Source: Mycobacterium sp.
GTDB taxonomy: Bacteria > Actinomycetota > Actinomycetes > Mycobacteriales > Mycobacteriaceae
Length of the DNA: 36,603 nt
NCBI GenBank assembly: GCA_025965975.1
Contig: JAOPVX010000180.1
Coordinates: 1 to 36,603 of the forward strand
Reading direction: 5' to 3'
Part shown: piece after piece, positions 3,683 to 32,213 of the stretch
Layout of the letters: each line of letters opens with the position of its first letter
Numbering within the stretch: position 1 is the first letter of the stretch
Notes under the pieces: generated by a model
The model's database searches: none
The model's input: the letters and a program-made list of their open reading frames with translations, nothing else
What the model was told of the DNA's origin: nothing
Made by a program: the position numbers and the translations under genes

Positions 3683-3700
3683 GAAGATCGCTCCCCGGTT

Positions 3701-3718
3701 GTTGGGCGATCGCCCAAC
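3701..3718. promoter_or_regulatory. Perfect 18-bp palindrome, probable TetR operator
   Basis: GTTGGGCGATCGCCCAAC is a perfect inverted repeat ending 15 bp before the ATG of the TetR gene at 3734. Position, length and symmetry are typical of an autoregulatory TetR-family operator in a divergent intergenic region. Confidence 0.65.
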
Positions 3719-3733
3719 GTTTAGGCTGCCGCT

Positions 3734-4408: not shown

Positions 4409-4513
4409 GCTAATCTGTTTCGCGGCGAGAAGTTATACCGGCTAAGTTAAGGGCTGACCTGCAGTCGGTAGGCACAAGAAGAGGGCATAAATGGGTAGCG
4501 AACGTCGGGGGCG

Positions 4514-4951
4514 ATGGGTTCGATGATGCGTCTCGCCAAACGCACGTGGGTACTGCTGGTGATCCTGCTGGTGGTGGTCGTGGCGGCGTTCTGTGTGGAC
4601 CGCTTCCGCGGATTCTTCGGCCACACCGTACTCACCAAGCCGGGCGCCGGCCTGGTCAATGACCCCGCGCCGTTCAACCCAAAGGTCGTGAAGTACGACA
4701 TTTTCGGAACCGGAGGGGCGGCGACGATCAATTACCTTGACCTCGACGCGCAGCCGCAGAAGGCCGAGAACGTCGCGTTGCCGTGGTCGCTCACCCTCAC
4801 CACGACTGCACCCGCCTCTAGCCCCAACATCGTCGCCCAGGGCGACGGCGACACCATCACGTGCCGGATCACGGTCGACGGGGTCGTCAAAGACGAGAGG
4901 ACCACGGACGGATTGAACGCCCAGACCTTCTGCTTGGTGAAGTCCGCATGA
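4514..4951 (+). CDS. MmpS family transport accessory protein
   Basis: 145 residues from ATG 4514. ATG 4523 is an equally possible start. A short basic N-terminus leads into one membrane helix ([15 protein letters not shown]), then an extracytoplasmic domain with the MmpS patterns [49 protein letters not shown] and a C-terminal FCLVKSA. MmpS proteins assist the partner MmpL in exporting lipids or siderophores across the inner membrane. The stop overlaps the mmpL start by 4 nt (ATGA), so the two are translationally coupled. This is the first gene of a five-gene operon. Confidence 0.9.
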
Positions 4952-7848: not shown

Positions 7849-7856
7849 GAGGATTG

Positions 7857-8198
7857 ATGAAGCGAATGCGACTCGCCGTCAGCGTCATTGCTGCACTTGC
7901 GCCTGCCGTTGTCCTCGCCGCGCCGGCACATGCCGACCCCGACGTCGACTTCGCCAACGAACTGCACACGTACGGCATTTACGGCCAGAAGGACTACAAC
8001 GCCTGGATCGGCAAAATAGTCTGCAAACGCCTGTACAACGGCGTCGACCCGGATGCCTACAAGTCGGCGGAGTTCATCTCACGGAACCTGCAGAAGGGCA
8101 GCACCACCGAGCAGTCGTGGCAGTTCCTCGGTGCGGCGCTGCGCACCTACTGCCCCGACAAGATGCCGGTTTTGGAACAAGCAGCGGCGCGACAATAA
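7857..8198 (+). CDS. DUF732-type secreted protein
   Basis: 113 residues. ATG 7857 has AGGAGG at 7847-7852, overlapping the mmpL stop; a TTG at 7854 is too close to that site. The signal peptide (MKRMRLAVSVIAALAP, cleavage near PAHADP) is followed by a small domain with VDFANELHTYGIYG, a Cys in KIVCKRL and a Cys in LRTYCPD, probably a disulfide. This fits the mycobacterial DUF732 family of small exported helical proteins, of unknown biochemical role. It is embedded in the mmpSL operon, so it may be a periplasmic partner of the transporter or its cargo. Confidence 0.82.
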   Translation: MKRMRLAVSVIAALAPAVVLAAPAHADPDVDFANELHTYGIYGQKDYNAWIGKIVCKRLYNGVDPDAYKSAEFISRNLQKGSTTEQSWQFLGAALRTYCPDKMPVLEQAAARQ

Positions 8199-8208
8199 GG
8201 AGTCGAAA

Positions 8209-8649
8209 ATGTTGATCAAAGTGAGTGTCGCCGCGGCTGCGGTAAGCGTGGCGGCGGTGGCCCTTCCCGCGCTGGCGTCAGCCGACTCCAGCGATGACTA
8301 CCCGATCCCCAACCGGATACTCAAGACCACCTGCACGGTCGATCAGTACATGGCCGCAGCGCGCGACGTCGAGCCGGTCTACTACGAGCGCTACATGACC
8401 GACTACAACAACAGGCCGCCCGACATTGAGCAGGGCGCCCGCGACCGAATCTACTGGTTCTTCTCGCTGGACTACGCGGGACGGCGGCAGTATTCGGAGG
8501 ACACCGCGACCAACGTCTACTACGAGCAGATGGCAACTCACTGGGGCAACTGGGCGAAGCTGTTCTTCAACAACAAGGGCGTCGCCGCGCGCACCACCGA
8601 CGTCTGCGCCGGCTACCCGCCCAGCGACCCGTCCGTCTGGAATTGGTGA
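8209..8649 (+). CDS. DUF5078-type secreted protein
   Basis: 146 residues from ATG 8209 with AAGGAG at 8197-8202. A signal peptide (LIKVSVAAAAVSVAAVALPA, cleavage near ALASADS) precedes a compact domain rich in Tyr, Trp and Arg: PIPNRILKTTCTVDQYMAAA, VEPVYYERYMTDYNNRPPDI, HWGNWAKLFFNNKG. I recognise this as the mycobacterial DUF5078 family, an exported protein without known activity. Two Cys residues (TTCTV and TDVCAG) could form a disulfide. It sits 10 nt after the DUF732 gene and its stop overlaps the methyltransferase start, so it belongs to the mmpSL operon. Confidence 0.82.
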   Translation: MLIKVSVAAAAVSVAAVALPALASADSSDDYPIPNRILKTTCTVDQYMAAARDVEPVYYERYMTDYNNRPPDIEQGARDRIYWFFSLDYAGRRQYSEDTATNVYYEQMATHWGNWAKLFFNNKGVAARTTDVCAGYPPSDPSVWNW

Positions 8650-9284
8650 CGACAGCGCCTCGCAGGACTCTGAACGACGCGGTCACGCAGTTCTGGAGTG
8701 TGGCAGCGCCGCTCTACGACCTGCCGTTTCTTCAGCAGTCGGTGTACCGACCCGCGCAGAACGAGGTGATCGCTGCGCTCACTGACAGCGGAGCGGGCAA
8801 GGTCGCCGACATCGCCTGCGGTACAGGCATTCTCGCCGACCGCATCGCGCGGGAGCTGCATCCCGACGAGGTCTACGGTGTCGACATGTCTGACGGCATG
8901 CTCGCCAAGGCCATGGCGCGCTCGTCGGAGGTGCGGTGGCGCAAGGGCCCTGCCGAGGATCTGCCGTTCGAAGATGACGCGCTGGACGCGGTCGTGACGA
9001 CCTCGGCGTTTCACTTCTTCGACCAGCCTGCTGCGCTGCGTGACTTCCACCGGGTGTTGGCTCCCGGCGGTTTGGCAGCGGTTGCGACCCTGAGTCCGCG
9101 GCAGCCGCTTCCGCTGCAACGACTGTCCGCCAATCGGCTTAATCCGGCACACAACCCGTCGCCTGCGGCGATGCGGGCATTGTTCGAAGGCGCCGGCTTT
9201 CGCGTCAGCGATCAACATCGTGTTCGCCGCCCCGCATGGACGCGGGTGTTGTCAGACCTGATCACTGTCGGCATCAAGCCGTAG
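8646..9284 (+). CDS. Class I SAM-dependent methyltransferase
   Basis: 212 residues. The GTG at 8646 overlaps the preceding stop (GTGA), so start and coupling agree. It has SAM motif I VADIACGTGILADRI, the acidic ribose-binding loop YGVDMSDGML, AEDLPFEDDALDAVVTTSAF and FHRVLAPGG, i.e. a UbiE/Methyltransf_11-type fold. The acceptor is unknown. As last gene of the mmpS-mmpL-DUF732-DUF5078 operon it probably methylates the lipid or glycolipid that the transporter exports, or a precursor. No membrane segment, so cytoplasmic. Confidence 0.85.
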   Translation: MTTAPRRTLNDAVTQFWSVAAPLYDLPFLQQSVYRPAQNEVIAALTDSGAGKVADIACGTGILADRIARELHPDEVYGVDMSDGMLAKAMARSSEVRWRKGPAEDLPFEDDALDAVVTTSAFHFFDQPAALRDFHRVLAPGGLAAVATLSPRQPLPLQRLSANRLNPAHNPSPAAMRALFEGAGFRVSDQHRVRRPAWTRVLSDLITVGIKP

Positions 9285-9548: not shown

Positions 9549-11123
9549 TTAGGGCAACCCGCTGAACAACGGGCTCAATACGGCCTGGAGAGGGTCCGGC
9601 GGGGGCGGTGGAACGGGTGGATCCGGTGTCACGGCCTGCGCTGGCGGGGCGATTGGTGCCGGCGGGGCCGCGAGCGGCGCCGCGGGTGGCGGAGCAATGG
9701 GTGCCGCTACCGCGGCTGCAGGCACCGCGGGTGACAAAGCAGCCGGCGCGGTGACGGGCGCCGCGGCTGGCGGAGCAGTGGGTGCCGGCGGGGCCGCCAG
9801 TGGCGCGGCGGAAACGTTGGCAGGCGGCGAGGCCGTGTGTTGAGGAACCGGGACGGAAACGGGTTCGGGCTCCACCACGGCAAGGGGCTCGGCCGGGAGT
9901 GTTTGGGTTTCCGGCGGAGCCGGTGTCGCGGGCGGCGGCGCAGCAGCCAGCGCTTGAACCGGCGGAGCGGGCGGCGAAAAGACCGGTGCGGGAACGGCGT
10001 GGACACTGGCTGAGGTCACTGAAGCGCCCGCCGCCTGCGGGTTTGCGGCCTGCGTTGACACCTTCTCGCCGTTGAGCGCCGAACCCGCAGCGAGCGAAAG
10101 CGCCGCCCCGACAACGGCCACCGCGGCCGCCGAGGTGGTCACCTTCTTCACATCCGATAGCAGCCTGGACCGGTCCGGCCGCGGCTTGAGCTTGCGCGGT
10201 GTCTCGGCCACCGGCGAGGAAACGACAGTGACGTGCCCGGCCGTCGACTGCGCCGCCCCGACAACGGCCTGAGCGGCGGTCTCAGCGGCGGTCTCAGCGG
10301 CCGCCGGGGTGGTCTCCTTCGTCACATCCGGTAGCGGCCTGGGCCGGTCGGGCCGCCGCTTGAGCTTGCGCGGTGTCTCGGCCACCGGCGAGGAAACGAC
10401 AGTGGCGTGCCCGACCGTCGCCAGCGCCGCCCCGCGCGCAAGGGCCAGCCGGGAGTCGACCGAATCGAACACGGGTATCGGCAGACCGTCGCTGATCGGA
10501 GCCGTGACCGCGTCCAGATCATCGTCTGAGCCGACAAGGTACAGGCATTCCGGTAACCAGTCGTCTCTGTTGAAAATCGTGGTCAGCCAGTCAACGAGGT
10601 CGGCTGCGTGCTCGCGGGCATTGGTGACGGCGGTGAGCACCGAACCGGCGCCGGTGGCGACGACCATCACCGTCGCTGTGCCGGGCTCGAGAATGCACAA
10701 AGCGGTCTTGTTGTGCTCGTTGGCACGCCCGGCCTCGATCGCCCAACTCTGCGTGGCCTGACGCAGCGGGATCGCGACAACGTTGTCGAACTCCAAGTCC
10801 GCCAATGACTTCAGCAGGGCTGTGGCGCTCGCCTCGACATCCTGGCTCCACGTCACCCGGACAGAGCCGACCGTGTGACCGCTTGCCGCCGCGATCGCGT
10901 GCGCGCCCCTCGCGGCCGCCGCGTGCTGGGACATATCACCGAGGCCGGCGCCGGACTGGACATCGAACGCATCGTGGTCGAGGGTGACGGCGCCGGGGTC
11001 TTGTCCGTCGAGAAGTGCCCACCCGACACTGGTGGACGTCATCGACAGTCCCAGCACTGTTTGCACCTTCGGCCCCACTCTCGTCGCCACACCGACGTCG
11101 CCGCCACGGGTCAAGCCCCGCAC
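9549..11123 (-). CDS. DUF7159 family protein with transmembrane segment and Pro/Ala-rich tail
   Basis: Up to 524 residues. The N-terminal part (VLGLSMTSTSVGWALLDG, TLDHDAFDV, ALCILEPGTATVMVVATGAG, YLVGSDDDLDAV) resembles the actin/Hsp70-like fold of mycobacterial DUF7159 proteins. A duplicated linker follows, then a hydrophobic helix (AAAVAVVGAALSLAAGSAL, near residue 340) and about 160 residues dominated by Pro and Ala, probably exposed in the cell wall. Start uncertain: the longest frame begins at GTG 11123, just after a TATGCT -10-like hexamer, so a leaderless or near-leaderless transcript is possible. GTGs a few codons later could also serve. Function unknown; the layout suggests an envelope scaffold or sensor. 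Confidence 0.75.
   Translation of the reverse strand: MRGLTRGGDVGVATRVGPKVQTVLGLSMTSTSVGWALLDGQDPGAVTLDHDAFDVQSGAGLGDMSQHAAAARGAHAIAAASGHTVGSVRVTWSQDVEASATALLKSLADLEFDNVVAIPLRQATQSWAIEAGRANEHNKTALCILEPGTATVMVVATGAGSVLTAVTNAREHAADLVDWLTTIFNRDDWLPECLYLVGSDDDLDAVTAPISDGLPIPVFDSVDSRLALARGAALATVGHATVVSSPVAETPRKLKRRPDRPRPLPDVTKETTPAAAETAAETAAQAVVGAAQSTAGHVTVVSSPVAETPRKLKPRPDRSRLLSDVKKVTTSAAAVAVVGAALSLAAGSALNGEKVSTQAANPQAAGASVTSASVHAVPAPVFSPPAPPVQALAAAPPPATPAPPETQTLPAEPLAVVEPEPVSVPVPQHTASPPANVSAAPLAAPPAPTAPPAAAPVTAPAALSPAVPAAAVAAPIAPPPAAPLAAPPAPIAPPAQAVTPDPPVPPPPPDPLQAVLSPLFSGLP
10101..10434 (-). repeat. Internal tandem duplication inside the DUF7159 gene
   Basis: Two copies of a linker segment lie at about 10101-10250 and 10251-10424, bounded by three occurrences of GCGCCGCCCCG. 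Each copy encodes VVSSPVAETPRKLK followed by an Arg/Pro-rich stretch. The second copy has an extra 24 nt made of a doubled 12-mer (GCGGCGGTCTCA), giving a 58-codon offset. Both copies stay in frame. Confidence 0.85.
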
Positions 11124-11464
11124 TCGAAGCGAGCATAGTTTGCTCGCCCTTGCACGTCATCTCCTACGGAGAAGAAACGCAACACCGGCGTTGTGGCGTA
11201 TATCGAAGGCCGACCAGGGCTGTTACCCGTCGTCGGGCCGCGCAATATTGACGGTCATGATTGGAAATTCGCGCAACCGAGCAGCCGCGCTCGGCGTTGC
11301 TCGTCTCACGCGGCGGCGTTAACCGTCCCGACTTGCTGCGTATGACGTCCATTAACCGTCTTCTCACACAGGGTCCACTATCGTTTGGTCGGGCACGATT
11401 GGTCACTCTTGAACCGCACCATTGACGAAAGTCGCTGCTGCCCTTCTAAATAGGAGCATTGGCC
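11124..11464. other. 341-bp divergent intergenic region
   Basis: No convincing gene. A TATGCT hexamer at about 11133-11138 on the minus strand fits the -10 of the DUF7159 gene. TTAACCGTC occurs twice, about 30 bp apart, near 11320-11360, possibly a regulator site. AGGAG at 11452-11456 serves the VOC gene. Confidence 0.4.
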
Positions 11465-14157: not shown

Positions 14158-14262
14158 CAACCTGCTGGGATGGTGTCGCCTGCGCGACCGTACATGCGCA
14201 CGTTGAAGGAACCTTTTGATGCTCACGCAGGCGGGATTTGAACCTGCGGCAGCTATCCGGCC

Positions 14263-19740: not shown

Positions 19741-20179
19741 TCGGGGCTTGCTCGTCCCATCCCTGCAGCGCCTTCGTGCTGTCGTCGAAGCGGGTGAAAG
19801 CGCTTGGCCGGTCGCTCCATATCGAACCGAGTGCACCGCGCATCATCTGCTCGAAGCCGAGGGCCATCACGCAGTCGGCTGCGCCCGTCTCGATCGCCTG
19901 CCGCGCCAAGAACAGCGCGGACGAGCCTGTCGAACAGTTGTTGTTGACGTTGAGGATCGGAATTCCGGTCTGCCCAAGCCCATACAACGCGGTCTGGCCC
20001 GACGTCGAGTCGCCGTAGACATAGCCCACATATCCCTGCTGCACCTGTGCGTACTCGATGCCGGCATCGTCGAGAGCTTTCCGCGCGGCAGCTTCGGCCA
20101 TCACGTGGTACGACTCGGTATTTCTTGGCGTGGTGAACGGAATCATCCCGACACCCACCACCGCGACGCGTGAGCTCAT
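19738..20179 (-). pseudogene. Thiolase/lipid-transfer protein, 3'-truncated
   Basis: From ATG 20179 the frame begins [18 protein letters not shown], with the thiolase nucleophile in [20 protein letters not shown] (Cys82) and [20 protein letters not shown]. After about residue 147 ([12 protein letters not shown]) it leaves the thiolase pattern and becomes an out-of-frame acyl-CoA dehydrogenase, stopping at 19622. Full SCP-x/Ltp-type thiolases have about 390 residues, so some 60% is missing including the catalytic His and second Cys. The in-operon deletion removed the thiolase 3' part and the dehydrogenase 5' part. Confidence 0.82.
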
Positions 20180-20421
20180 CGGCGCTACTTCGATCGAAAC
20201 TATGGCAGATTCACTTAGTAGAGCACGAGCGGTAGGGCTCATACAAGTAGCATGACGGTGAACAGCCGTTTTCTGCTTCATACAGCGAAAACATGAGACC
20301 GGTAGCGTGGCCGGCGCTCCCAATATGCGACTATGCGAAATTCAGATCAGGTCAGGCCCCCCGGACTTTCTGGCACCCGAGCGAGACACTGGCGAGCAGT
20401 TGATTCGAGGCAGAGCGTCCA

Positions 20422-21177
20422 TTAGACGAACTGCTGTCCACCGTCGATGTCGTACGTCGCGCCGGTGAGCGCTGTGTTGGTCATGAGGTGGACGGCGAGA
20501 GCGGCGACGTCGGCTGGGCCGACGACGCGGCCGATGGGCAACGTCGCCCGCAGCTCATTGCGGCGCTCCTCGAGTCGATCTCCGAGCAGCGATGCCGACA
20601 ACGGGGTGTCGACGAAGCCCGCGGCGATGAGGTTCACGCGAACCGGCGCGAGCTCGAGCGCGAGGGCCGCCGTGAACGGAGGCAGCGTGGCAGTGGCCGC
20701 CGAGACGATCCCGAGACCGTGACCGACGCGCCGACCGCCGGTGCCACCCATGAGGATCAACGAGCCGCCGGGCCTAATGTTGCCCACAGTGTTGCGCGCG
20801 ACCTCAAGGCCCAGCACCACATGCCCGCTGAGCGCTTCTCGCACCTGGTCTGAGTCCATCTCGAGCAACGGCCCGTATCGCGGGCCGCCGGCCGTGACCA
20901 TCACATGGTCGATCGGTGTTGGCAGGTCTGAGAAGAACTCCCGCAGGGCAACCGAGTCATTGGCGTCGAACGCAGCGGTGCGTCGGGCGTCGGCCTCGAG
21001 CGCCGCTTGCTTCAGTCGCTCGGGATTGCGGCCGGTGAGGATGACATCGGCACCTTCCGCCCGGGCGCGTCGCGCCGTCTCGAGTCCGATGCCTGCGCTG
21101 CCGCCGATCACGACGACGGTCTGCCCAGCCAGTTCGGGTTCGCGCTGGGCGGCAACAGGAGTGGTTCCGCTGGCCAT
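20422..21177 (-). CDS. SDR family oxidoreductase without the usual Tyr-Lys pair
   Basis: 251 residues, ATG 21177 with GGAGGA 5 nt upstream. Rossmann signature VVVIGGSAGIGLETARRARA, TGRNPERL and the C-terminal ALTGATYDIDGGQQFV define an SDR. Where classical members have YxxxK, this protein reads GHGLGIVSAATATLPPFTAA, with no Tyr and Thr instead of Lys. The rest of this block (LALELAPVRVNLIAAGFVDT) is well conserved. I recall a widespread actinobacterial subgroup with the same change, so it may be functional but chemically different. It is divergent from the ABM gene over 142 bp. Confidence 0.85.
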   Translation of the reverse strand: MASGTTPVAAQREPELAGQTVVVIGGSAGIGLETARRARAEGADVILTGRNPERLKQAALEADARRTAAFDANDSVALREFFSDLPTPIDHVMVTAGGPRYGPLLEMDSDQVREALSGHVVLGLEVARNTVGNIRPGGSLILMGGTGGRRVGHGLGIVSAATATLPPFTAALALELAPVRVNLIAAGFVDTPLSASLLGDRLEERRNELRATLPIGRVVGPADVAALAVHLMTNTALTGATYDIDGGQQFV

Positions 21178-21319
21178 GGCTCCTCCGTGTCCTATCGCGA
21201 CAGCGCCGCCGCGTTAATCGTCACATGGAAAGCTTGGTCGCACCCATGAAACACAATGGCCCTTGCGACAACATCAGCGCCCCCAGCGGGACTCTTGACC
21301 ACCGACAAAGGAGACGACG

Positions 21320-21612
21320 ATGCCGGTCACGGTGATCCTTGAACTCACACTGAAGCCCGAGTCGGTGCCTGCTGCGCGCGATGTCATGCGCCGAGCGCTT
21401 CAAGATACTCGGGCATTCGACGGCAACCTCGGTACCGACGTGCTCGTCGATGAGGACGACGACGCGCACTGGGTCATCTACGAGCGCTGGGACACCGTCG
21501 AGCACGACGAGGCCTACCGCAGCTTTCGGGCAGGCGAAGGTCGGCTGACCGAGCTGCCTCCGCTGCTCGCCGCGCCCCCGTCAAAACGAGGTACAGCACT
21601 ACCGACGTCTGA
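21320..21612 (+). pseudogene. Antibiotic biosynthesis monooxygenase (ABM)-domain protein, frameshifted near the end
   Basis: ATG 21320 has AAGGAG about 7 nt upstream. The ABM ferredoxin-like fold is recognisable: VTVILELTLKPESVPAARDV, LVDEDDDAHWVIYERWDTVE, YRSFRAGEGRL. The expected family ending reads PVKTRYSTTDV then TGA at 21610-21612, but in a frame one base off. A run of five C near 21584 would restore it if it had six. Without the shift the frame continues in phase through the downstream cutinase as one 455-residue reading, which I judge artificial. Similar proteins are cofactor-free monooxygenases or quinol-related enzymes. Confidence 0.7.
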
Positions 21613-21787
21613 TCGCCAGCGTGCTCCCGCGGGGGCGCGACGAATTTCAGACTCGAGCCTCACGGCATCGGCGGGTGGCGCCGATCAAGTATCAGAAGGG
21701 CGGTCGAGCAAAAGGTGCAGCAGCGCAAATAGACGCCGGACTTGCGCTCAACGCGCGTCTGGCGTCGCGATATGTCAGCATTGGTCC

Positions 21788-22687
21788 GTGAGGCGACGCC
21801 ACATCGCTGGAATGATCGGTGCTGCGGCGTCGGTGACGTGGGCGATGCAGATCGCGCCGACGCCTGCGGCGCACGCGGCGGGGTGCCCCGACGCCGAGGT
21901 GGTATTCGCGCGCGGCACCACAGAGGCGCCCGGTGTTGGCCCAACGGGACAGGCGTTCGTCGACTCGCTGCGCTCACATGTCGGCCCGAAGTCGGTCGGG
22001 GTGTACGCGGTCGACTATCCCGCCACCACCGACTTCCCCACCGCCGTCGATGGAATTACGGACGCGCGAACACATGTCCTTACCACCGCGGCGAACTGTC
22101 CCCACACCAAGATGGTGCTCGCCGGATTCTCCCAAGGTGCCGCGGTGATGGGCTTCGTCACCGCCAACGCGGTGCCCGACGGGGTTTCGCCTTCGGATGT
22201 GCCTGCGCCTTTGCCGCCCGACGTGGCCAACAACGTCGCCGCGGTAGCGCTGTTCGGAAAACCGTCGGTGCGATTCATGCACGCAATCAATGACCCGCCG
22301 GTCGCCATCGGTCCCCAATATCTTCCCAAAACCATCGACCTGTGTGTCGACAATGACCTGGTGTGCGATTCACACGGGACGAGCTTTTCCGCGCACAACG
22401 AGTACGTAGACGCCGGCATGGTCGACCAGGGAGCAGCGTTCGTCGCAAGTGAACTCCAGGCGAGTTGGGCCGCGGACGTGCCGGTGCCCCCGGCGCCGCC
22501 CGCTGGGGGCCCGGCTCCGTCGCCGCTCACGGCGTCAGCGCCTCTGACACCTCCCGTGCCTGCAGCTGGACTTGCACCACCGGCGCCCGCTGCTGGACCA
22601 TCGCCGCATTTGCCGTCCACGCCGCTGACACCTCCAGGGCCTGTAGTTCCGGTTGCACCGCCGCAGCCTGTCGGGCCGCTCGCCTGA
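21788..22687 (+). CDS. Cutinase-like secreted esterase with Pro-rich tail
   Basis: 299 residues from GTG 21788, which gives a basic start (RRRH) and a signal peptide ending near AAHAAG. An in-frame upstream extension into the ABM gene is rejected. The full triad is visible: Ser115 in LAGFSQGAAVM, Asp190 in DLCVDNDLVC, His203 in SAHNEYVDAGM. The last 70 residues are Pro/Ala-rich, likely a cell-wall-spanning or disordered tail. Role: extracellular hydrolysis of lipid or polyester ester bonds. It is a paralogue of the His-less cutinase at 11929. Confidence 0.88.
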   Translation: MRRRHIAGMIGAAASVTWAMQIAPTPAAHAAGCPDAEVVFARGTTEAPGVGPTGQAFVDSLRSHVGPKSVGVYAVDYPATTDFPTAVDGITDARTHVLTTAANCPHTKMVLAGFSQGAAVMGFVTANAVPDGVSPSDVPAPLPPDVANNVAAVALFGKPSVRFMHAINDPPVAIGPQYLPKTIDLCVDNDLVCDSHGTSFSAHNEYVDAGMVDQGAAFVASELQASWAADVPVPPAPPAGGPAPSPLTASAPLTPPVPAAGLAPPAPAAGPSPHLPSTPLTPPGPVVPVAPPQPVGPLA

Positions 22688-22796
22688 TTTCTCGAAAGAT
22701 CCATCCGCGCACGGTATTTCGTGTCAGCGCGTGCGGTGTGGCGCGCCATAGTTGATCGACGTCCACGCTCGTCCGGGCGCGTACCAAATGAGCAGT

Positions 22797-24113
22797 TCAG
22801 ACGGTCTCGGCGGTCATCGACGAAAAGCCGGTCGCGCTCAGCCGCGCGGCCACCGCCGCAGCCAGAAAGCATCCAAGCGCCGTCCACCCCGCAAAACCGC
22901 TCAGCCCGTCCTTGGCCATCAGCAGCAGCGCCACGCCCGATACGCATATGAGTGCACCGGCCGCGGTCGACCTGACGCCGACGGCGCGAACCGGCGCGTC
23001 CCACCACGGCAGCCGGCGATGCTCGAGCGGTGCGAGCAGTCGGAACGCCACAGCCATGACGACCGTGAACACGAGCTCCCGCAGCGCTAGGACGCCCACG
23101 AACCCCGGCGCGTTGACGTCGTATGCGTCGAGGCCGACGGCATGCAGGGAGAAGGTGGCGACCGCGATCGCGGGGATGTGCCAGAGATAGAGCGTCATCG
23201 CTCCCCCGTTGCCCACCGCGACGGCGTGCCAGATGCGCGGCCGCGCGGCCCACCGCCGGATGGCGTCCGCGGCCGCCACGAACACGCACGACATCCACGT
23301 GCATTGCAGCGCAAGCAACAGCGTGGGCGGCGACACGTTGGACATGCGCTCGGTTCCGGTGACGACCAGCGAGAGGTCGTACGGCCCTGCCATGGCGAGC
23401 ACGATCTGCGCGACGAGCGCCGATGCGGCGACGGCGAGGGCTGCACGCGGCCCGATCAGTCGGCGCGCATACGCCACCCCGATCACGACGGGGATGAGCC
23501 AGACGATGAGGTAGTTGGCGGCGCCGGCCTCGGGCGTGCTGACGGCGATCCGGATCCCGTCGCACGCCGCCGCGGCCGCGAGCAGGGACGCGACCACGAA
23601 TGCGACCGCGCGCCAAGAACGCAGCCTGGTCAGCGCCGGCACGAAGGCGAGCACCACCAGGTACACGCCAAGGAACCACAGGAGCGCGACGCACTCGCGC
23701 CCGAGAGCAGCGGCGGACTCCGCTCCGAGCAGCGTGCGCGTGACGAGAAGACCGACCGCCCACGCCGCCAGGTACCAGAACACGGGTCGGCACAATCGCT
23801 GTGCGCGGGTGAACAGCCACGTGCCCCACGGTGTGCCCGAGCGCCAGCCGTAGGCGCCCGCCGCGCCGCCTGCGAGGAAGAACAGCGGCATGACCTGCAC
23901 CACCCACGTGACCGGGGCGATCGCAGGCAGCTCGCCGAGCAGGTTGCCGATCCGCAGACCGTCGGTGTCGATCGTGGCGAGCAGCAGAGCGCAGTGTCCG
24001 AAAATGACGACCACCAGTGCGGCGAGCCGAGCGACGTCGACGGCGCGGTCACGGCCGGGTGACGTGTTGTCGGCGACCGTGCTTCTGTTGGACACGGGCT
24101 TTGTGGGCGGCAT
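22797..24113 (-). CDS. Acyltransferase family 3 integral membrane protein
   Basis: 438 residues from ATG 24113. A longer frame to 24263 has no better start. After a hydrophilic N-terminus comes RDRAVDVARLAALVVVIFGH with the Arg and His typical of acyltransferase-3 proteins, then about ten hydrophobic segments, including MPLFFLAGGAAGAYGWRSGT and GGAMTLYLWHIPAIAV. The family transfers acyl groups to sugars or lipids on the outer face of the membrane. Closely related proteins in mycobacteria have no known substrate. It converges with the intact cutinase gene, 109 bp apart. Confidence 0.82.
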   Translation of the reverse strand: MPPTKPVSNRSTVADNTSPGRDRAVDVARLAALVVVIFGHCALLLATIDTDGLRIGNLLGELPAIAPVTWVVQVMPLFFLAGGAAGAYGWRSGTPWGTWLFTRAQRLCRPVFWYLAAWAVGLLVTRTLLGAESAAALGRECVALLWFLGVYLVVLAFVPALTRLRSWRAVAFVVASLLAAAAACDGIRIAVSTPEAGAANYLIVWLIPVVIGVAYARRLIGPRAALAVAASALVAQIVLAMAGPYDLSLVVTGTERMSNVSPPTLLLALQCTWMSCVFVAAADAIRRWAARPRIWHAVAVGNGGAMTLYLWHIPAIAVATFSLHAVGLDAYDVNAPGFVGVLALRELVFTVVMAVAFRLLAPLEHRRLPWWDAPVRAVGVRSTAAGALICVSGVALLLMAKDGLSGFAGWTALGCFLAAAVAARLSATGFSSMTAETV

Positions 24114-24369
24114 GATGCCAGCATGCCGGGCCGGTGGACCCGACGGATGAGTAGTACTACGCGCTGGCCGGGCTGACTGGTCGGGCTGACTGTGTTTGAA
24201 CCTGCGAGCACTTAACCCCAGTTGGCCTGGAGGCGTTTCGCAGCGTGTCACAGTGGCGCTCAAATCGCGGCGACCTGCGGGAACCGTCTCACGTCGTCTC
24301 TGGTTGTATCGACGTAACCCGTGGGACTGACATCAACGTGGTGACAATGATGCCGTCGGCGCTCCATCT

Positions 24370-24755
24370 TCACGCCCGCGCCGCGGGCTTGTTATGCGCA
24401 GCAGCGACCTTTGGCGCTGAGCGCGTTGATGGTGCCGCCCGTCCCGTTTGGCCCCTCTCGCGCGGGACCTTCGCAGCCTTCTGACGCCGGGGCCGATCAA
24501 TCGGCCGTACCTCAAACGTCAATCCAACAGCGGGCAGCATATTCACCAGAGCATCCAAGCTGAACTTGTGCAGCTTCCCATTCACTAGGTCCGAGAGCCG
24601 AGGCTGGTTGACATGAAGAATCTCCGCGCCTCGGTTTGAGTCCACCCCATCCCCTCGACGCGCTCTTCAATGGCAATCATCAACAGCGAACACGCGGTAA
24701 TATTCGCCGCCTCCCCTGGAGTATCGGCGATGTCGTAGAACACGCTCCTAGCCAT
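24370..24755 (-). pseudogene. XRE/HigA-like antitoxin, frameshifted
   Basis: From ATG 24755 the frame gives MARSVFYDIADTPGEAANI and MGWTQTEA, then loses the family pattern. The next frame continues AEILHVNQPRLSDLVNGKLH and FSLDALVNMLPAVGLTFEV, the helix-turn-helix of short XRE antitoxins, ending in a basic Ala-rich tail at 24370. One missing base after the GAG codon at about 24625 explains the switch. The start overlaps the end of the toxin remnant by 8 nt (ATGGCTAG), the classic toxin-first arrangement of HigBA-type pairs. Confidence 0.75.
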
Positions 24756-24979
24756 TTTTCGCCTCCTTGTACCGCTGGTTGGCCTTATCAATATCCGGCT
24801 TGGGGGTCGTTGTGATTTCTGCTCAAATACGTGCAGGAGATGAACCGTGTTCCGGAACTTCGCCGCGTATCAGGCGTGCGATGCCATCCTCGTCCGATAC
24901 CCGGATCTCGTAGGCCCCAGCGCCAACGGCTGGACGCGAACTGGCTTGTGCCGAGCCATTCGACCGGCTTGAGCTCCAC
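24748..24979 (-). pseudogene. HigB/phage Gp49-like toxin remnant
   Basis: Pieces of a Gp49-type toxin appear in three frames: VELKPVEWLGTS from GTG 24979, GAYEIRVSDEDGIARLI, VHLLHVFEQKSQ, and TPKPDIDKANQRYKEAKNG ending in TAG at 24748-24750. Intact members have about 110-120 residues; here the middle is deleted and two more shifts are needed. The family cleaves mRNA on the ribosome. This copy must be dead. Confidence 0.72.
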
Positions 24980-25092
24980 TCCATGACTATGTCTGAACGG
25001 ATATGATCCCTGCACGTCTGAGACCAACGTGGCATGCCGAGTGGTGCCCACAAGTCTCCTCTAATGCGCCGTGACCGGCCAGAATGTGAGTT

Positions 25093-27450
25093 GTGGAGGA
25101 ACGGTTTCCTGGCGAATTGGACACCCTGCGTGCCGACAATGTGCGCTTGCGCCGACTGCTCAAGCTCAGTGAGAAACAGGCACGCGCGGCAAGCCCCGAT
25201 CAGGCAGCACTGACTGGCGCCCCGACTGCGCCGGTGGACATGGGATCGACACCAGACGACAAGATCCGCTTCTACACCAACCTCTTCCGCTGCCGCACAG
25301 ACGTTTACGCCCTCCGTTGGGAGAACAAGCGCGACGGCCGATCAGGTTGGATGCCGGCCATACACGGGTACTGGCGCAAAGGAATAAAGCGGGAAGACGT
25401 GCCTTACCTGCGGCTCACTCATGACGTGATCGGAAAGCACCTGCGCGGCGACGCGCATATCGGGCTGTATCCGCTCGGTGACGATGACACGTGCTGGTGG
25501 GTGGCGGCGGACTTCGACAAGGATTCCGCGATGCTCGACGCACTCGCCTATCTGAAAGCTGCTCGCGCCCAGAATGTTCCGGCGGCTCTGGAGGTGTCGC
25601 AGTCGGGACGCGGTGCCCATGTGTGGATCTTCTTCGCGCAAGCCACATCGGCATCAGTGGCGCGACAGATCGCGACCAGCCTGCTTGGCGAGGCGTTCCA
25701 GTTACGTGGCAGCATGCACCTCAGTAGCTACGACAGGCTCTTTCCGTCCCAAGACGTCCACTCCGGTCGGGGCATGGGCAACCTAATCGCGGCCCCGTTG
25801 AACGGCAGGCGCCGCCAACACGGCACGACACTATTTCTAGACCCCGCCACGCTGGAGCCATTCGACGACCAATGGGCCTACCTGTCGAGCATCGCCCGAT
25901 TGTCCACCAGCGACGTCGCCGCCCTCGGCCGTCGACTCCCGATCCTCAAGATTGGTCACGATGTGCGCCGGCTGCAATTGCCGACGTCGTCGAAGATCGT
26001 GCCGCGTCCGTCGGCGATCATCCGCACGCACCTTGCGGCCCGAATGACGGTGACCACTGCCGATCTCGGACCAGCGATGATCTCCGCGGTCAAGCACGCC
26101 GCTTCAATCCGCAACCCAGAGTTCGATGCACGCCAACGTGCACGCCGAAGCACCTGGGAAACACCACGATTCCTCTACAGCTACGACGAAACCCTCGAAG
26201 GCGACCTGGTCCTCCCCCGCGGCCTACAGAGCCTGCTGACAGTCCTCGTCGAATCCGCGGGCAGCGCACTGAAAGTCGACGACGCACGCGCCGTCGGCGA
26301 AAATCAGCAGTTCACCTGCTCAGCCGAATTGCGCGCCGAACAAGCCTTCGCGGTGCAACAACTCGTCGAACAGGACACTGGTGTACTCGTCGCTCCGCCG
26401 GGTTCGGGTAAGACCGTGATCGCCTGCGCGAGTATCGCTGCGCGTTCGACGACCACACTGATTCTCGTCGATCGAAAAGCTCTCGCCGACCAGTGGCGTG
26501 ACCGCCTTCAAAAGCACCTCGGGTTCAATTGCGGACAGATCGGCGGCGGACGGTCGAAGACGACCGGCATCCTCGATGTTGCCCTGCTGCCGACCCTGGC
26601 GCGCCGTAACCAGATCGACGAACTGACCGGCCGCTACGGATTCGTAATCGTCGACGAATGCCACCACGTCGCAGCGAGCGCATTCTTCCACGTGCTCAAC
26701 CGAATACCCGCTCGCTTCTGGCTCGGGCTGACGGCCACACCCGAGCGCCGAGATGGACTCGAAGACCTCATCTACCATCAGCTCGGATCCCACAGCGTCG
26801 TAATCGACCCCCCAACCGCGGGGCAACTGCCCGAGGCAGCAACAGCCGCGCCAGCGCCTCATCCGGTGCTCCATCTCCACAAAACCAAGTTCAAGTACAC
26901 CGGGGACGCCGATCCAACCGCGCCAGGCGGAATGGCCAAAATCTACCGGGCACTCGTCGCCGACCAGGAGCGACTCGACCAGATCACCAGTGACGTACTC
27001 GCAGCCCACAAAGGCGGCGCCAATATCCTGGTCCTGACAACGTGGATCGACCACCTCCATGCCATAACCCGTCGACTCAGCGACGCCGGCGCATCCGTCA
27101 CTGTCCTGCACGGCCAGATGAAGACGCGCGAACGCCGCGAGATCACCGAGGGCCTTGCCGGCCACACGACCGATGATCCGCCATTGCTACTCGTCGGTAG
27201 TAGCTCGTTTATCGGCGAGGGCTTCGACTGCCCAGCGCTGGACACCCTGTTTCTCGCCGCTCCCATTACCTTCAAGAACCGTCTCGTGCAATACGTCGGG
27301 CGCGTGACCCGCGCACACCTCGGCAAGACGACCGCCACCGTGCACGACTACCACGACGAACTGACCCCGGTGCTCGCATCGTCGCTTCGTAAACGCGCAC
27401 CCGGCTACGTCAAAATGGGCTTTCCCGACCCACGCTCCATGCTTCGGTGA
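25093..27450 (+). CDS. Archaeo-eukaryotic primase plus SF2 helicase fusion (TOTE conflict system type)
   Basis: 785 residues from GTG 25093. Domains in order: a short Leu-rich coiled coil (residues 8-30); an archaeo-eukaryotic primase-like domain (about 55-300) with the metal motif WWVAADFDKD (Asp140, Asp142) and SGRGAHVWIFF (171-181); then an SF2 helicase with Walker A APPGSGKTVIACA (near 434), VDECHH (near 519), LTATPERRDG, VLHGQMKTRERR and motif VI QYVGRVTRAH (near 732). This matches proteins described with TOTE conflict systems, thought to act against invading nucleic acid. No partner nuclease is visible; a dead toxin-antitoxin pair lies head to head with it. The C-terminus appears complete. 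Priming and unwinding are inferred from motifs. Confidence 0.85.
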   Translation: MEERFPGELDTLRADNVRLRRLLKLSEKQARAASPDQAALTGAPTAPVDMGSTPDDKIRFYTNLFRCRTDVYALRWENKRDGRSGWMPAIHGYWRKGIKREDVPYLRLTHDVIGKHLRGDAHIGLYPLGDDDTCWWVAADFDKDSAMLDALAYLKAARAQNVPAALEVSQSGRGAHVWIFFAQATSASVARQIATSLLGEAFQLRGSMHLSSYDRLFPSQDVHSGRGMGNLIAAPLNGRRRQHGTTLFLDPATLEPFDDQWAYLSSIARLSTSDVAALGRRLPILKIGHDVRRLQLPTSSKIVPRPSAIIRTHLAARMTVTTADLGPAMISAVKHAASIRNPEFDARQRARRSTWETPRFLYSYDETLEGDLVLPRGLQSLLTVLVESAGSALKVDDARAVGENQQFTCSAELRAEQAFAVQQLVEQDTGVLVAPPGSGKTVIACASIAARSTTTLILVDRKALADQWRDRLQKHLGFNCGQIGGGRSKTTGILDVALLPTLARRNQIDELTGRYGFVIVDECHHVAASAFFHVLNRIPARFWLGLTATPERRDGLEDLIYHQLGSHSVVIDPPTAGQLPEAATAAPAPHPVLHLHKTKFKYTGDADPTAPGGMAKIYRALVADQERLDQITSDVLAAHKGGANILVLTTWIDHLHAITRRLSDAGASVTVLHGQMKTRERREITEGLAGHTTDDPPLLLVGSSSFIGEGFDCPALDTLFLAAPITFKNRLVQYVGRVTRAHLGKTTATVHDYHDELTPVLASSLRKRAPGYVKMGFPDPRSMLR

Positions 27451-27541
27451 CGGTTCGCGCTCAGTCGGAATGTCCGGAGGATGTCAAAACTTGTGGATGA
27501 GCGGCGCGCAATCACCGGGGGCCGCCCGCCAGATTTCAGAG

Positions 27542-27949
27542 CTACCCCGCGCCGGGTGGCGGGCGGCTGGACGATCCTGGCGGCGCCAATTTCGCGCGAC
27601 GGATGTGGCGAGGAGTCCGTCCCGGGAGGGCATCGGCGGTCGTCTTGAAGCTCTGTGCCCTCTCGTGTTCAACCTGGCGAGGGGAAGTCGTGTACTCGGG
27701 GGCGAGCTTAACGTTGTGACTCTTCGCGTCGAACAGGACATTGACGACCTCACCTGGTCGCGGATGCTCGGAATGGCCGTGCATCAGAGGCTCGTGGAAT
27801 GTCGCCCTGAAGGGCGCCTCGCCTTCCGGCCTGACATCAGCTACGTACTCGTGCGGGACGGTGGCGTCCCCGGTTCCTCGACTCCAACTCGTCAAAAGGC
27901 TCTCCGCAATGATGGTCGCCTCCGCCGACTCCCAGTCATGTCCAAACAT
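27542..27949 (-). CDS. Small hypothetical protein with a DUF3592-like beta domain
   Basis: 135 residues from ATG 27949 with GGGAG 6 nt upstream. The readable core is EYVADVRPEGEAPFRATFHE then PRPGEVVNVLFDAKSHNVKL, a pattern seen in actinobacterial small beta-barrel proteins where an R-P-x-G-x-P-F strand is followed by a P-G-x-x-V-x-V-x-x-D strand. The C-terminal 40 residues are basic and low complexity, probably disordered. No signal peptide or membrane segment. Function unknown. It converges on the primase-helicase gene with 91 bp between. Confidence 0.62.
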   Translation of the reverse strand: MFGHDWESAEATIIAESLLTSWSRGTGDATVPHEYVADVRPEGEAPFRATFHEPLMHGHSEHPRPGEVVNVLFDAKSHNVKLAPEYTTSPRQVEHERAQSFKTTADALPGRTPRHIRRAKLAPPGSSSRPPPGAG

Positions 27950-28062
27950 CCGTATCTCCGATCTCCCAATGCGGGTTACGAGGGCATGTCGTCGCAGCCG
28001 ATGTCATTGTGATGACGGCATTCCGTGCTGCCTGGACGCGGGCCGACGAATGGTTCTAGCCG

Positions 28063-28419
28063 TTATCCCGGCGGGCACAGGGCCGGCAAAAAGAGGGACC
28101 AACACTGCCTCGGCGCCAGCGGTGGAGGATCATCTCCGTCCCAAATACCGGGAACACCGGGGGGTGTAGGGCCATAATTGCTAGCAACATTGCCCTGCCC
28201 GTAGCCGACAGCCCACCAGGTGTGGCAAACACTCATGTCCCAAGCCACTCCGGGCGGTCCCGTCGGCCATTCCATGGGTTGCCCTGGGCACCACCGATGT
28301 GGGCCGTACGAGTTGTCGGCCTGGGCGGTACCCGCGCCCAGACCCAAACCGGCCACCGCGATGCCGCCCGACAGCAGCGCTCCGGCAATGATCCGCTTCA
28401 GGTTGTGACTGGTGTTCAT
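28063..28419 (-). CDS. Small secreted Cys/Trp-rich mycobacterial protein
   Basis: 118 residues from ATG 28419, with AGGGAA about 8 nt upstream. Signal peptide KRIIAGALLSGGIAVAGLGL with cleavage near AQADN. The mature part of about 82 residues has four Cys (WCPGQPMEW, DMSVCHTWW, RQCWS, LCPPG) and many Pro, Gly and Trp, typical of a mycobacterial family of small exported proteins of unknown function. The four Cys could make two disulfides. Confidence 0.75.
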   Translation of the reverse strand: MNTSHNLKRIIAGALLSGGIAVAGLGLGAGTAQADNSYGPHRWCPGQPMEWPTGPPGVAWDMSVCHTWWAVGYGQGNVASNYGPTPPGVPGIWDGDDPPPLAPRQCWSLFLPALCPPG

Positions 28420-28597
28420 GTTGCGGTTCCCTGGGTCGTGTCTTCACACGCCGCCCCATTTGGCGTCGCGAGTGCGGTAAGTACAGACGGCGGGGGTGGC
28501 TACCGATCCCAACAACTGCGTCACACGCGGTGGCCGGTCGCTGTGAAGTATGCGCTGGCCCGCGCCGCGAGTTGATGGGGAAGGGAGACCGCGTTCG

Positions 28598-28710
28598 GTG
28601 CAGCGCCTGCTGGAACGCGACGGGGCACTGGCCGAGCTAGGTGGACTTGCCCGGCGGGTTCAGCAGGGCGCCGGAAGCGTGGTGTTGCTGCGGGGAGGCG
28701 GCGGTCATTC
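28598..28710 (+). pseudogene. N-terminal fragment of a LuxR-family (LAL) ATPase regulator
   Basis: GTG 28598 has GGGGAAGGGAGA upstream and starts a familiar LAL beginning: QRLLERDGALAELGGLARRV, then GAGSVVLLRGGGGHS. The Walker A loop (normally GxxGxGKT) is destroyed, and the frame then loses any resemblance. Only about 38 codons survive. Confidence 0.55.
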
Positions 28711-28819
28711 GGTTCGCCCGGCAAACGTGCGGGCCGACGCGAGCCGGTGCTGGTTCGTGCCGACACAATGGGTTGGGTGTCTCCGGGTTGACCGTTTGGC
28801 GGTAGAACAACGCGTGGAA

Positions 28820-29087
28820 TCAGGTCTCGGTGGTGGGTTGGGGTTGGCGGGCGTGTGCGGCGGCCTGGGTGCGGTTGTCGACACCGAGTTTGGTCCTGAT
28901 GGCGCTGACGTGGTGGCTGACGGTTCTGGGGCTGATGTGCAGGCTGGCGGCGATGTGGGCGTCGCTGTGGCCGGCGGCCAGGAGTGTGAATACTTCGCGT
29001 TCGCGGCGGCTCAGTTGCTGTGTGTCGGCGAGGATGTCGGCGCGGCGGCCGCGGCGGGTTGGGCCGCGCAGCGTTGCCGGTCGGTGC
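28820..29087 (-). pseudogene. C-terminal LuxR-type HTH fragment
   Basis: Minus-strand reading after an in-frame TAG near 29088 gives LSRREREVFTLLAAGHSDAH then LHISPRTVSHHVSAIRTKLG and NRTQAAAHARQ to a TGA at 28820. This is a LuxR/GerE helix-turn-helix with no usable start codon. Large LAL regulators end this way, so it probably derives from one, facing the N-terminal fragment at 28598. Confidence 0.65.
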
Positions 29088-29097
29088 TAAGCACACG

Positions 29098-29132
29098 AGG
29101 GCGGCCCCCGGAGGACTCTCCGGGGCCGCCCT
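29098..29132. terminator. Very stable hairpin, probable bidirectional transcription stop
   Basis: A 15-bp stem with a 1-nt bulge (left arm 29098-29113, GACT loop 29114-29117, right arm 29118-29132), nearly all G-C. No long T run follows on either strand, which is common for mycobacterial terminators. It lies about 200 bp downstream of the second mmpL. Confidence 0.5.
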
Positions 29133-29333
29133 ACCTACGGCTTGCCGAAGCAGCATACTTCTTAATATCGTTGTGCGACAGGCAGTTTGAGGGCCATCTC
29201 GCGCGGCGACGACCCAGCGATTCCTGTCGATTCCAGGTCGGTGGCGGTGAATAACCGGTAACCGAATCACGATGCCCTGCAGGGCGCCCGTGGTTCACGT
29301 CGAATTAACAAGAGTGTGAAGGTAATTCGGAAG

Positions 29334-32213
29334 TCAGCCAGCGGGCTCCGATTCCCCCTCAAGCAGTTCGCGAACGGCGGGACGTGGTCCGTAGGGTCGA
29401 AGCATCTGGCTGGCGGGGCGCGGACGCACTGATTGCGGCCACCAGAACCAGCGTCCGAGAAGCGCTGCGATGGACGGCGTCATGAACGAACGCACGATCA
29501 ACGTGTCGAACAGCAGCCCCAGGCCGATGGTGGTCCCTATCTGACCGAGAACGCGCAAATCGCTGAACACGAACGAGGACATGGTGGCGGCGAAAACGAG
29601 GCCGGCGGACGTCACCACCGCGCCGGTGCCGGCCATTGCACGGATGATGCCCGTCTTTAGTCCGGCGCCGATCTCTTCTTTGAAACGCGAGATCAGCAGC
29701 AGGTTGTAGTCGGATCCCACCGCCAAGAGCAGGATGACGGCCAGCGCAAGCACGATCCAGTACAACTGGATACCGAGAAGGTCCTGCCAGACGAGCACGG
29801 ACAGCCCGAAAGAGGCGCCAAGAGAAAGCCCCACCGTGCCAACGATGACGAGCGCGGCAACCAGACTTCGGGTGAGGATCATCATGATGAGCAAAATCAG
29901 ACTCAGCGCGGCTATGCCCGCGATCATCAGGTCGTATTTGGCGCCGTCTTGGATGTCCTTGTAGGTCGCCGCGGTGCCGCCGAGATAGATGTTGGCCGTA
30001 GCCAAAGGGGTACCCTTCAGGGCCTCCTGCGCGGCGTTCCTAATCGCGTTGATATGCGAGATGCCCTCGGGGGTCGCGGGATCGCCGTCGTGGGTAATGA
30101 TCATGCGAGCGGCCTTGCCGTCCGGGGATAGGAACAGTTTCAGGCCCCTCTTGAATTCGGCGTTGTCGAATGCCTCCGGTGGCAGGTAGAACGAGTCGTC
30201 GTTCTTGGAGGCGTCGAAAGCTTGTCCCATGGCGGTCGCGTTTTGCAACGAAGCCGCGGTCTGTTCGTCGATCCCCGACGTGGTGGCGTAGTTCGTCATC
30301 GTCAGGCCCCGATTGGTCTGCTGACTGGCGATCTGGGGCGGGATCAGCGCCAGCAGCTGCGGCTGGAGTGCATTCAATTTGTCCAAACTTGCCGTGATCT
30401 GACCGAATTGGTCGGTGAGCGCGTCGATGCCGTCGAGTGCATCAAAGATCGATCTGATCGCCCAGCAGATCGGAATGTCAAAGCAGTGCGGTTCCCAGTA
30501 GAAGTAATTGCGCAGCGGCCTGAAGAAGTCGTCGAAATTGGCGATCTTGTCGCGCAGATCAGTCACCGTGGCGACGGTATTGTGAAACGCTTCGGTCTGT
30601 TCGCGAGTGGCGGCGGCGGACTGCTGTTGCAAGGCATATTGTTGCCGCAAAATGGCAATCGTTTTGTCTATCTCGGCGGCCTGTTTCAGCAAGTCGGCCG
30701 CGCGGTCTTGCTGGTATTTCAGGTTCTCGATCTGGCCGAAGCTTTGCGCGCTGATCTGAAACGGTATCGAGCTGTGGTCCAGCGGGGTTCCCAACGGCCT
30801 GGTCATGGATTGCACCAGGGCGATACCGGGTGTGTGGAAGATCGCCTTGGCCACCCGCTCCAAGACGAGCATGTCGGCCGGATTACGCATATCGTGATCC
30901 GTCTCGATCATCAGCAGTTCGGGATTCAGCCGGGCCTGCGAAAAGTGCCGCTCAGCAGCCGCGTAGCCGACATTGGCCGGGGCGCTGGCAGGCAGGTAGA
31001 GGCGAGCATCGTAATTCGTCTTGTATCCCGGCAGGGCCAGCAGACCGATCAGGGCCACCGCGGATGTCACCACAAGAATTGGCCCGGGCCAGCGCACGAT
31101 GGCGGTGCCGATCCGCCGCCACCCCTGGGTGCGCATCTTGCGCTTGGGGTCGAACGCCCCGAAATGACTTCCCATCGTAAGCACCGCGGGAGACAGGGTC
31201 AGCGCGGCTGCCAGCGCAGTAAGAATGCCTATTGCGGCGGGAACTCCCAGGCTTTGAAAATACGGCAACCGGGTAAAGCTGAGACAGAACACAGCGCCGG
31301 CGATGGTCAGGCCCGAACCTAACACCACGTGCGCGGTCCCGCGATACATAGTGTAGAAAGCCGCTTGGCGATCCTCGCCGGCGAGGCGCGCCTCTTGATA
31401 ACGGCCCAGAACAAATATCGCGTAGTCTGTTCCGGCGGCGATGGCCAATAACGTCAGCAGATTAGTCGAGTACGTAGACAGGCCAATTATCCCGTGGTGC
31501 GCAAGAAAAGCGACGACTCCGCGGGCCGCGACCAACTCAATAAGGACCATGACAAGCGCCAGGGCGACGGTAACCACCGAACGGTAGACAAAAAACAGCA
31601 TCACCGTGATCACGACGAGCGTTATCACGGTCACCTTCGCGGTACCTTTGCTGCCCACCGCGAACTGATCGGCGATGAGTGGCGCCGCGCCGGTGACATA
31701 GGCCTTGACCCCCGGCGGCGCCGCCGTGCCGTCAACAATATTGCGCACGGCGTCGACGGACTGGTTGGCCAACGTGCCGCCTTGATTACCGGCAAGAAAC
31801 ACCTGAACATACGCGGCCTTGCCGTCAGCGCTCTGCGAACCCGACGCCGTTAGCGGATCCCCCCAGAAGTCCTGGATGTGCTCTACATGTTTCGTGTCCC
31901 GGGAGAGCTTCTGGACCAAGGTGTCGTAAAACTGGTGGGCGTCAGCGCCAAGGGGCTTATCGCCCTCCAGGACGACCATCGCCACACTGTCGGAATCGAA
32001 CTCGTGAAACACCTTGCCCATACGTTTCATCGCCTGCAGTGACGGCGCATCTTGGGGGCTCAGCGACACGTTCTGTTCTTTGGCAACCGCCTCCAATTGC
32101 GGCACCGCAGCATTCGTGATCGCAGCCAGCGCCAGCCAGAACAGCGCGATCGGCACCGAAAGCCGGCGGATCATCTGCGCTAACGAAGGGCGCGGGACGT
32201 GATGGTTGCTCAT
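29334..32213 (-). CDS. MmpL family RND lipid transporter (second copy)
   Basis: 959 residues; ATG 32213 overlaps the mmpS stop by 4 nt. Same layout as the mmpL at 4948: proton-relay motifs [15 protein letters not shown] (near residue 262) and [15 protein letters not shown] (near 834), and a central coiled-coil hairpin rich in Gln with [18 protein letters not shown] (MmpL4/5 subgroup). The N-terminal segment [20 protein letters not shown] aligns closely with the first copy. Probable role: export of a lipid, siderophore or drug. Lacks the DUF732, DUF5078 and methyltransferase genes that follow the first copy. A TetR gene lies upstream, so it may be induced by its substrate or by drugs. Confidence 0.92.

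Follow-up and report, generated by a model that had tools for sequence, protein, structure and literature searches.

A mycobacterial primase-helicase gene and its toxin-antitoxin partners in units bracketed by tRNA 3'-end repeats

The locus and its primase-helicase gene

The window (the whole stretch of DNA analysed, 36,603 nucleotides of contig JAOPVX010000180.1, Mycobacterium sp.) carries a primase-helicase gene preceded by the remnant of an antitoxin gene on the opposite strand and by a degenerate copy of a tRNA 3' end:

25093..27450, plus strand: primase-helicase gene (AEP-TOTE and SF2 helicase), a 785-codon open frame with a GTG start, matching Pfam PF22548, ResIII and Helicase_C
25258..25923, plus strand: AEP-TOTE primase-polymerase domain, residues 56-277 (PF22548, E 1.3e-76), aligning with the solved chains 7nqd/7nqf
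26326..27315, plus strand: SF2 helicase lobes, residues 412-741 (ResIII 412-552, Helicase_C 635-741), XPBII/Rad25-like by profile
24180..24222, no strand assigned: degenerate copy of the tRNA-Pro(ggg) 3' end, putative left repeat of an element, 38 of 44 alignment columns identical, no tRNA gene called
24370..24645, minus strand (opposite to the primase-helicase): first piece of an antitoxin remnant (HTH_37, 42.6 bits, cut-off 27) in the toxin-antitoxin (TA) slot
24585..24791, minus strand: the other antitoxin piece, in a different frame (HTH_37, 15.4 bits, E 0.016, below cut-off)
24823..25053 (also 24788-25051), minus strand: possible toxin remnant, unconfirmed and proposed from its position only

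The primase-helicase frame holds no internal stops, and the fusion of 785 residues described in the initial annotation was borne out by profile search, in which PF22548 matched at 257.7 bits against a cut-off of 27 and was covered over positions 1-229 of its 230. Among solved structures, the helicase part comes closest in sequence to XPBII/Rad25 and the primase part to 7nqd/7nqf, which the structure listing labels only as a TPR-region protein and which we take to be a CRISPR-associated PrimPol. The NCBIfam model PrimPol_Msp scored 72 bits against a cut-off of 200. Both motifs named at the outset, ADFD and SGRGAHVW, are present, and the metal-binding DxD of AEPs (D140, D142) is retained with its downstream histidine (H176); an alignment of 23 sequences shows no variation at these three residues or at K440, T441, D521, E522, H524 and H525. 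Paired aspartates form the catalytic site of CAPPs, according to the part of PMC8211822 consulted. The dN/dS of 0.08-0.12 against four relatives, an estimate near saturation because dS exceeds 1, indicates from sequence comparison that the frame is under purifying selection. An AlphaFold2 model built on the 23-sequence alignment (mean pLDDT 58, pTM 0.36) was set aside as evidence; the coiled coil claimed initially shrinks in this poor model to a predicted helix at residues 8-22 only, with a pLDDT of about 35.

The tRNA-end copy scored 30.5, where three shuffles reached at most 12.5-13, and is the sole match in the window scoring at least 19. A short T-arm-like match at 14234-14244, outside any tRNA call, may be due to chance. 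The two minus-strand HTH_37 pieces fit a single antitoxin broken between frames, while the putative toxin remnant gave no Pfam match; the dead TA pair said to face the gene is thus upheld in its antitoxin half only. No significant match to PIN, TacAT or AbiE remnants was obtained in the window, nor any CRISPR-like repeat array at 20000-32000, nor any TPR, OB, TBP or Cas match among the 20 window ORFs scanned with Pfam. That the gene has no visible partner holds for the window copy, but not for mycobacteria at large.

Distribution and the toxin-antitoxin slot

The distribution is patchy and marked by decay. Within the genus Mycobacterium, 31 of 396 genomes matched the primase-helicase at 1e-30 or better, and 19 of the 396, with the source genome counted in, held a full-length match without stops, the other matches being split, truncated or interrupted. 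At the level of the order, 26 of 397 genomes matched at 1e-60 or better, spread over 10 of 85 genera. Plasmid records matched in 238 cases, 91 of them over at least 80% of the protein, and these relatives sit on large plasmids. Phage records matched 1157 times, in no case over 80% of the query, and all 25 matches listed begin at residue 343 or later and therefore concern the helicase part only. Among viral contigs, two stretches fitted a pattern and none was confirmed as a relative.

Comparison of neighbourhoods across mycobacteria, proposed as a check in the initial annotation, revealed a fixed slot: a same-strand TA pair lies directly upstream in 30 of the 33 copies having a start and at least 1000 bp of upstream DNA, with 36 to 432 bp between the end of its toxin match and the aligned primase-helicase start; defence genes are not constant neighbours. 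The 33 take in query representatives and two copies each from L033, L068 and one genome (L062/L088); leaving out L180 and L185, both retrieved by toxin query, gives 28 of 31. The 30 pairs comprise 13 of PIN type, 11 of TacAT kind 1, two of TacAT kind 2, three of AbiE type and one XRE/nucleotidyltransferase pair, the last (in L032) named by eye; Pfam names the pairs as TacA1 with GNAT, HTH_17 with PIN_3, AbiEi with AbiEii, and Gp49 with HTH_3/HTH_37. The pair was found by clustering and a purpose-written simple gene caller that can miss small genes. The three exceptions are the window copy, an old fragment in L033, and L085, where the pair stands 1 kb off. Nucleotide similarity between the window and its relatives stops at the ends of the primase-helicase gene.

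The association was also followed from the toxin side in 297 genomes. The primase-helicase followed PIN homologues of at least 60% identity in six of nine fetched loci (L144-L152) and those of lower identity in none of 21 (L153-L173); TacT of at least 76% identity was followed by the gene or its remains in nine of 20 fetched loci (L174-L193), and the other TacT loci in one of ten (L194-L203). PIN and TacT pairs therefore also live alone. As background, 123 genes of 60-200 residues were scanned out of 332 neighbours outside the TA slot, and the 25 commonest families listed included PIN three times, GNAT three times, Gp49 twice and TacA1 twice, some of them from older units.

The occupants of the slot have been exchanged. 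On a 37-row tree of the primase-helicase, with 22 rows TA-labelled and broken rows left out, the TA kind changes seven times where four is the least possible, and a single origin is rejected for PIN (p-AU 7e-69) and for AbiE (6e-5). A first tree, whose 39 rows included two broken copies, had eight changes and weakly rejected a single origin of TacAT (0.037), with weak support for 10 of its 36 inner branches; the TA groups had been fixed in name before the trees were viewed. The copies in L068 differ in kind, PIN going with the older, broken one and TacAT with the newer. The swapping of unrelated TA kinds in one fixed slot suggests that the function of the pair, rather than its chemistry, is selected.

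Outside mycobacteria, no constant partner was found in ten plasmid regions examined, of the 91 records with most of the gene; several have TA genes a few kb away, and integrases or tyrosine recombinases occur in five of the ten. The TA link is therefore not a property of the whole family. On plasmids of Gemmobacter fulvus (L092) and Agrobacterium pusense (L093), three adjacent tyrosine recombinases lie near the primase-helicase gene. Among the mycobacterial loci, the genes at 3048-8456 of L048 and related genes of L037 look like a Wadjet type I system beside the TA pair, judged by their size, their order and JetA/B/C and DUF3375/DUF4194 matches from batch scans without member assignment.

tRNA-end repeats and the tRNA-Pro array

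In many of the mycobacterial units, 125-250 bp separate the end of the unit from the 3' end of a facing tRNA gene: tRNA-Pro(ggg) beside der-cmk-rluB-scpB (names given by eye), tRNA-Met, tRNA-Leu or a tRNA-Phe cluster, with the unit reversed in L035 and L036. Exact tRNA 3'-end direct repeats of at least 19 nt bracket the unit in 12 of 17 loci (L054, 54 nt; L055, 47; L033, 44; L068, 43; L030, 31; L032, 27; L078, 26; L035, 25; L034, 24; L050, 24; L038, 22; L052, 21). Control placements with real pairs excluded reached this length in 4 of 336 cases, all in L068 because of its tandem copies; a first control had stood higher, at 11 of 313 placements, because shifted placements still contained real repeat pairs. 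Since ARAGORN calls no tRNA gene in L030, L032 and L052, only the repeated end is visible there; the repeat of L030 is a hairpin-like sequence adjoining the tRNA-Met end, also found in G011.

Nine of the 12 brackets are compact (3.7-4.5 kb), holding the TA pair and the primase-helicase alone, three genes each with no integrase of their own, the gene being split in L050 and L054. The remaining three add a 41-codon call (L038), a Fic gene and a 55-codon call (L034), or four genes (L078), and no tyrosine-recombinase motif was found among the called genes of the brackets. The Fic/DOC-family gene of L034 (6516-7727) lies within a tRNA-Phe bracket together with TacAT and the primase-helicase. When degenerate matches are allowed, a tRNA end is present on at least one side of 32 of the 37 copies with a start, stacked copies sharing sites. 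The five in which none of the four tRNAs tried gave an end (L029, L042, L048, L059, L061) each have a contig end within 2.3 kb on one side; four of the five had left-hand DNA long enough to reveal a left repeat.

At tRNA-Pro, PIN units (L033, L054, L055) and TacAT units (L038, L052, L068, L078) have similar left arms of about 125 bp, and several of their right arms also resemble each other; the arms at other tRNAs are unlike those at tRNA-Pro. Stacked copies of the unit are seen in L033 and L068. In two genomes without the primase-helicase, G016 and G022, the chromosomal sequence matches that of L054 as far as the tRNA 3' end. No complete empty site was obtained: 61 genomes were searched for the flanks of L030 and as many for those of L035, which recurred in one and no other genome respectively, and L235 offered a tRNA-Met side with the hairpin only. 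None of the four tRNA ends was found in 13 Nocardia and Arthrobacter loci. Two repeats, of 16 nt and 14 nt, do occur at one spacing in L073, an Arthrobacter locus of the HigBA type.

Set against these units, the window copy looks like a decayed example, with the left repeat kept, the TA remnant broken and the primase-helicase frame intact. Its left repeat lies 927 bp before the start, compared with 1068-1125 bp in TacAT-type relatives and 1449-1673 bp in PIN types, and neither a right-hand repeat nor a left or right arm was found in the window.

In the source genome the tRNA-Pro end occurs nine times when up to three mismatches are allowed (reversed-pattern control, 0), once within a called tRNA gene. 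The tRNA-Pro left arm occurs at six places in contigs with end copies, five of which adjoin a copy, and no TA or primase-helicase match was found at these six. Contig C123 breaks off 36 residues into a second primase-helicase copy (86% identical), with TacAT kind 2 beside it. We read the whole as an array of tRNA-Pro insertions split up by the assembly, in which mixing of sequences is possible because it comprises 449 contigs with 4.6% contamination. Contig C142 (L247) carries three end copies and, at 5768-9220, encodes a protein kinase of 1150 residues that also has TPR repeats and a STAND-type NTPase region; at 10477-11349 a single frame joins an Arm-DNA-binding integrase-type domain to a group II intron maturase domain, apparently an integrase interrupted by a group II intron. 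In contig C266 (L250), positions 2344-4983 encode a cyclase plus NB-ARC protein of 879 residues; a tRNA-Pro end copy flanked by the same left arm lies close by.

Integrases for the tRNA-Pro site exist in the genus. The end of an integrase-like protein (by eye) sits beside a tRNA-Pro copy in L249, a contig of the source genome, and its relatives of at least 78% identity outside that genome had a tRNA-Pro end near in seven of seven cases (L254-L260), six of these ends being inside a called tRNA gene and one of the seven relatives having stops. Among the other relatives fetched (L261-L282), a tRNA-Pro end appeared in two of 22, farther off. In G085, tRNA-Pro ends flank both sides of a 35.6-kb stretch that contains an integrase; this integrase was rejected as a helper candidate, since the stretch shares the core with the TA units but has a left arm unlike theirs.

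Explanations and comparison with known systems

Because tRNA 3'-end repeats bracket 12 of the 17 loci, the mobile element is taken as the primary fact, and the primase-helicase is very probably the distal gene of a minimal integrative element in Mycobacteriaceae. This element would measure about 4 kb and run from a tRNA 3'-end repeat through a left arm, TA pair, primase-helicase and right arm to the tRNA gene, and we infer the mobility of the unit from this structure. An integrase acting in trans, from a prophage or another tRNA-targeting element, would excise and insert the unit; the TA pair would penalise its loss; and the primase-helicase would unwind and prime the element DNA after excision, whereby the circle would be copied or kept. 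A role in element replication or maintenance is an open contender that stops a little short of probable, and is somewhat more likely than one in defence; the explanation as a whole, with its integrative element, trans integrase and replicative role, is put forward just as tentatively. Speaking for the element reading, AEP genes occur in tRNA-integrated elements (PrimPol-PV1) and AICEs have Prim-Pol modules, in the consulted parts of PMC5862659 and PMC3218068 respectively. Against the full explanation stand the five of 37 copies without a tRNA end, the window without left arm and right repeat, the G085 integrase with its left arm unlike that of the TA units, the lack of a complete empty site, the plasmid relatives without a constant TA pair and the naming of the family after conflict systems.

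The units may further represent a new class of minimal mobile element, in which any TA pair serves as a retention module and the primase-helicase as a copy module, about 4 kb in size, sited at tRNA ends and moved by the integrases of others; we regard this as conceivable and rather doubtful. If true, few integrative elements with everything needed for keeping and copying themselves would be smaller. The placing of a "conflict systems" family in a mobile-element context with defined ends renders its function testable and accounts for the patchy occurrence and frequent breakage of the gene in mycobacteria.

The foremost alternative, a mobile defence islet, accepts the same tRNA element and would make the primase-helicase an anti-phage cargo directed at foreign DNA as it invades or replicates, the TA pair being its abortive arm or guard. 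In its favour, the domain is classed with TOTE conflict systems by Pfam and with CRISPR-associated PrimPol by PADLOC, AbiE-type pairs stand in three copies, a set of 90 neighbours includes matches to models of Wadjet JetA/B/C and restriction-modification (the scan does not specify which neighbour), and the relatives on large plasmids presumably have replication genes of their own at hand. The primase-helicase nevertheless completes no known defence system, and its constant neighbour is a TA pair and not defence genes, which leaves the islet a possibility that we would tend to doubt. The stand-alone defence candidate proposed in the initial annotation is only partly supported: the fusion and the broken antitoxin beside it are upheld, but in mycobacteria the gene usually belongs to a tRNA-bracketed TA element.

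It is unlikely that the units are passive CIME-like remnants, decayed from larger elements with attachment sites, TA pair and primase-helicase kept and moving only with a neighbour. CIMEs by definition lose integration and transfer genes and keep attL and attR (PMC5704250, in the part consulted), to which the compact brackets without integrase, the many broken copies and the stacks at tRNA-Pro would conform. The content of TA pair and primase-helicase, however, recurs at tRNA-Pro, -Met, -Leu and -Phe with several TA kinds, so independent decay to one content is improbable, and the frame is under purifying selection. A chromosomal DNA-repair helicase with a primase domain, suggested by the resemblance of the helicase part to XPBII/Rad25 and RadD, is highly improbable given the patchy distribution (31 of 396 genus genomes, 19 full-length without stops) and scores far below the NCBIfam cut-offs (XPB, 82 vs 610; RadD, 48 vs 720).

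Returning to the integrative element with its proposed replicative primase-helicase, no description of a TA and AEP-helicase element at tRNA genes was recognised among titles and abstract beginnings of the open-licence literature. The protein architecture itself is already published (PrimPol-helicase, CAPP_A type 3) and widespread. TOTE denotes TPR, OB, TBP and Effector in the part of PMC12458937 consulted, and not the Tudor/OB composition first supposed; the window protein has the AEP-TOTE domain by Pfam, whereas the TPR, OB and TBP partners were not found among the 20 window ORFs; relatives, for which the 25 commonest neighbour families were listed, may have them. A PrimPol followed by a helicase is the most prevalent architecture of non-CRISPR CAPPs, typically in mobile elements, according to the same portion of PMC8211822 as above. 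The window protein shares this domain order with CAPP_A type 3 and matches 7nqd/7nqf in sequence; it differs in lacking a CRISPR-Cas neighbourhood (no array at 20000-32000, no Cas in the ORFs scanned), and in its TA slot and tRNA brackets, of which that portion makes no mention.

The AICEs, as described in the consulted part of PMC3218068, are likewise actinobacterial integrated elements, often at tRNA genes and with a primase-polymerase gene, but possess an integrase, an FtsK-type Tra and a PF09250 Prim-Pol, which the TA units do without; Pfam finds no PF09250 match in the window primase-helicase. The PrimPol-PV1 elements, in the consulted part of PMC5862659, share AEP genes, direct repeats and many tRNA-gene sites, but belong to another AEP group by Pfam name and are drawn with integrases and many more genes. 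Lastly, CIMEs and tRNA integrative elements, as far as the part of PMC5704250 goes, resemble the TA units in their attachment-site-like repeats, absence of integration genes and stacking at one site, from which the units differ by repeating one minimal content at several tRNA genes, unlike the outcome of chance decay.
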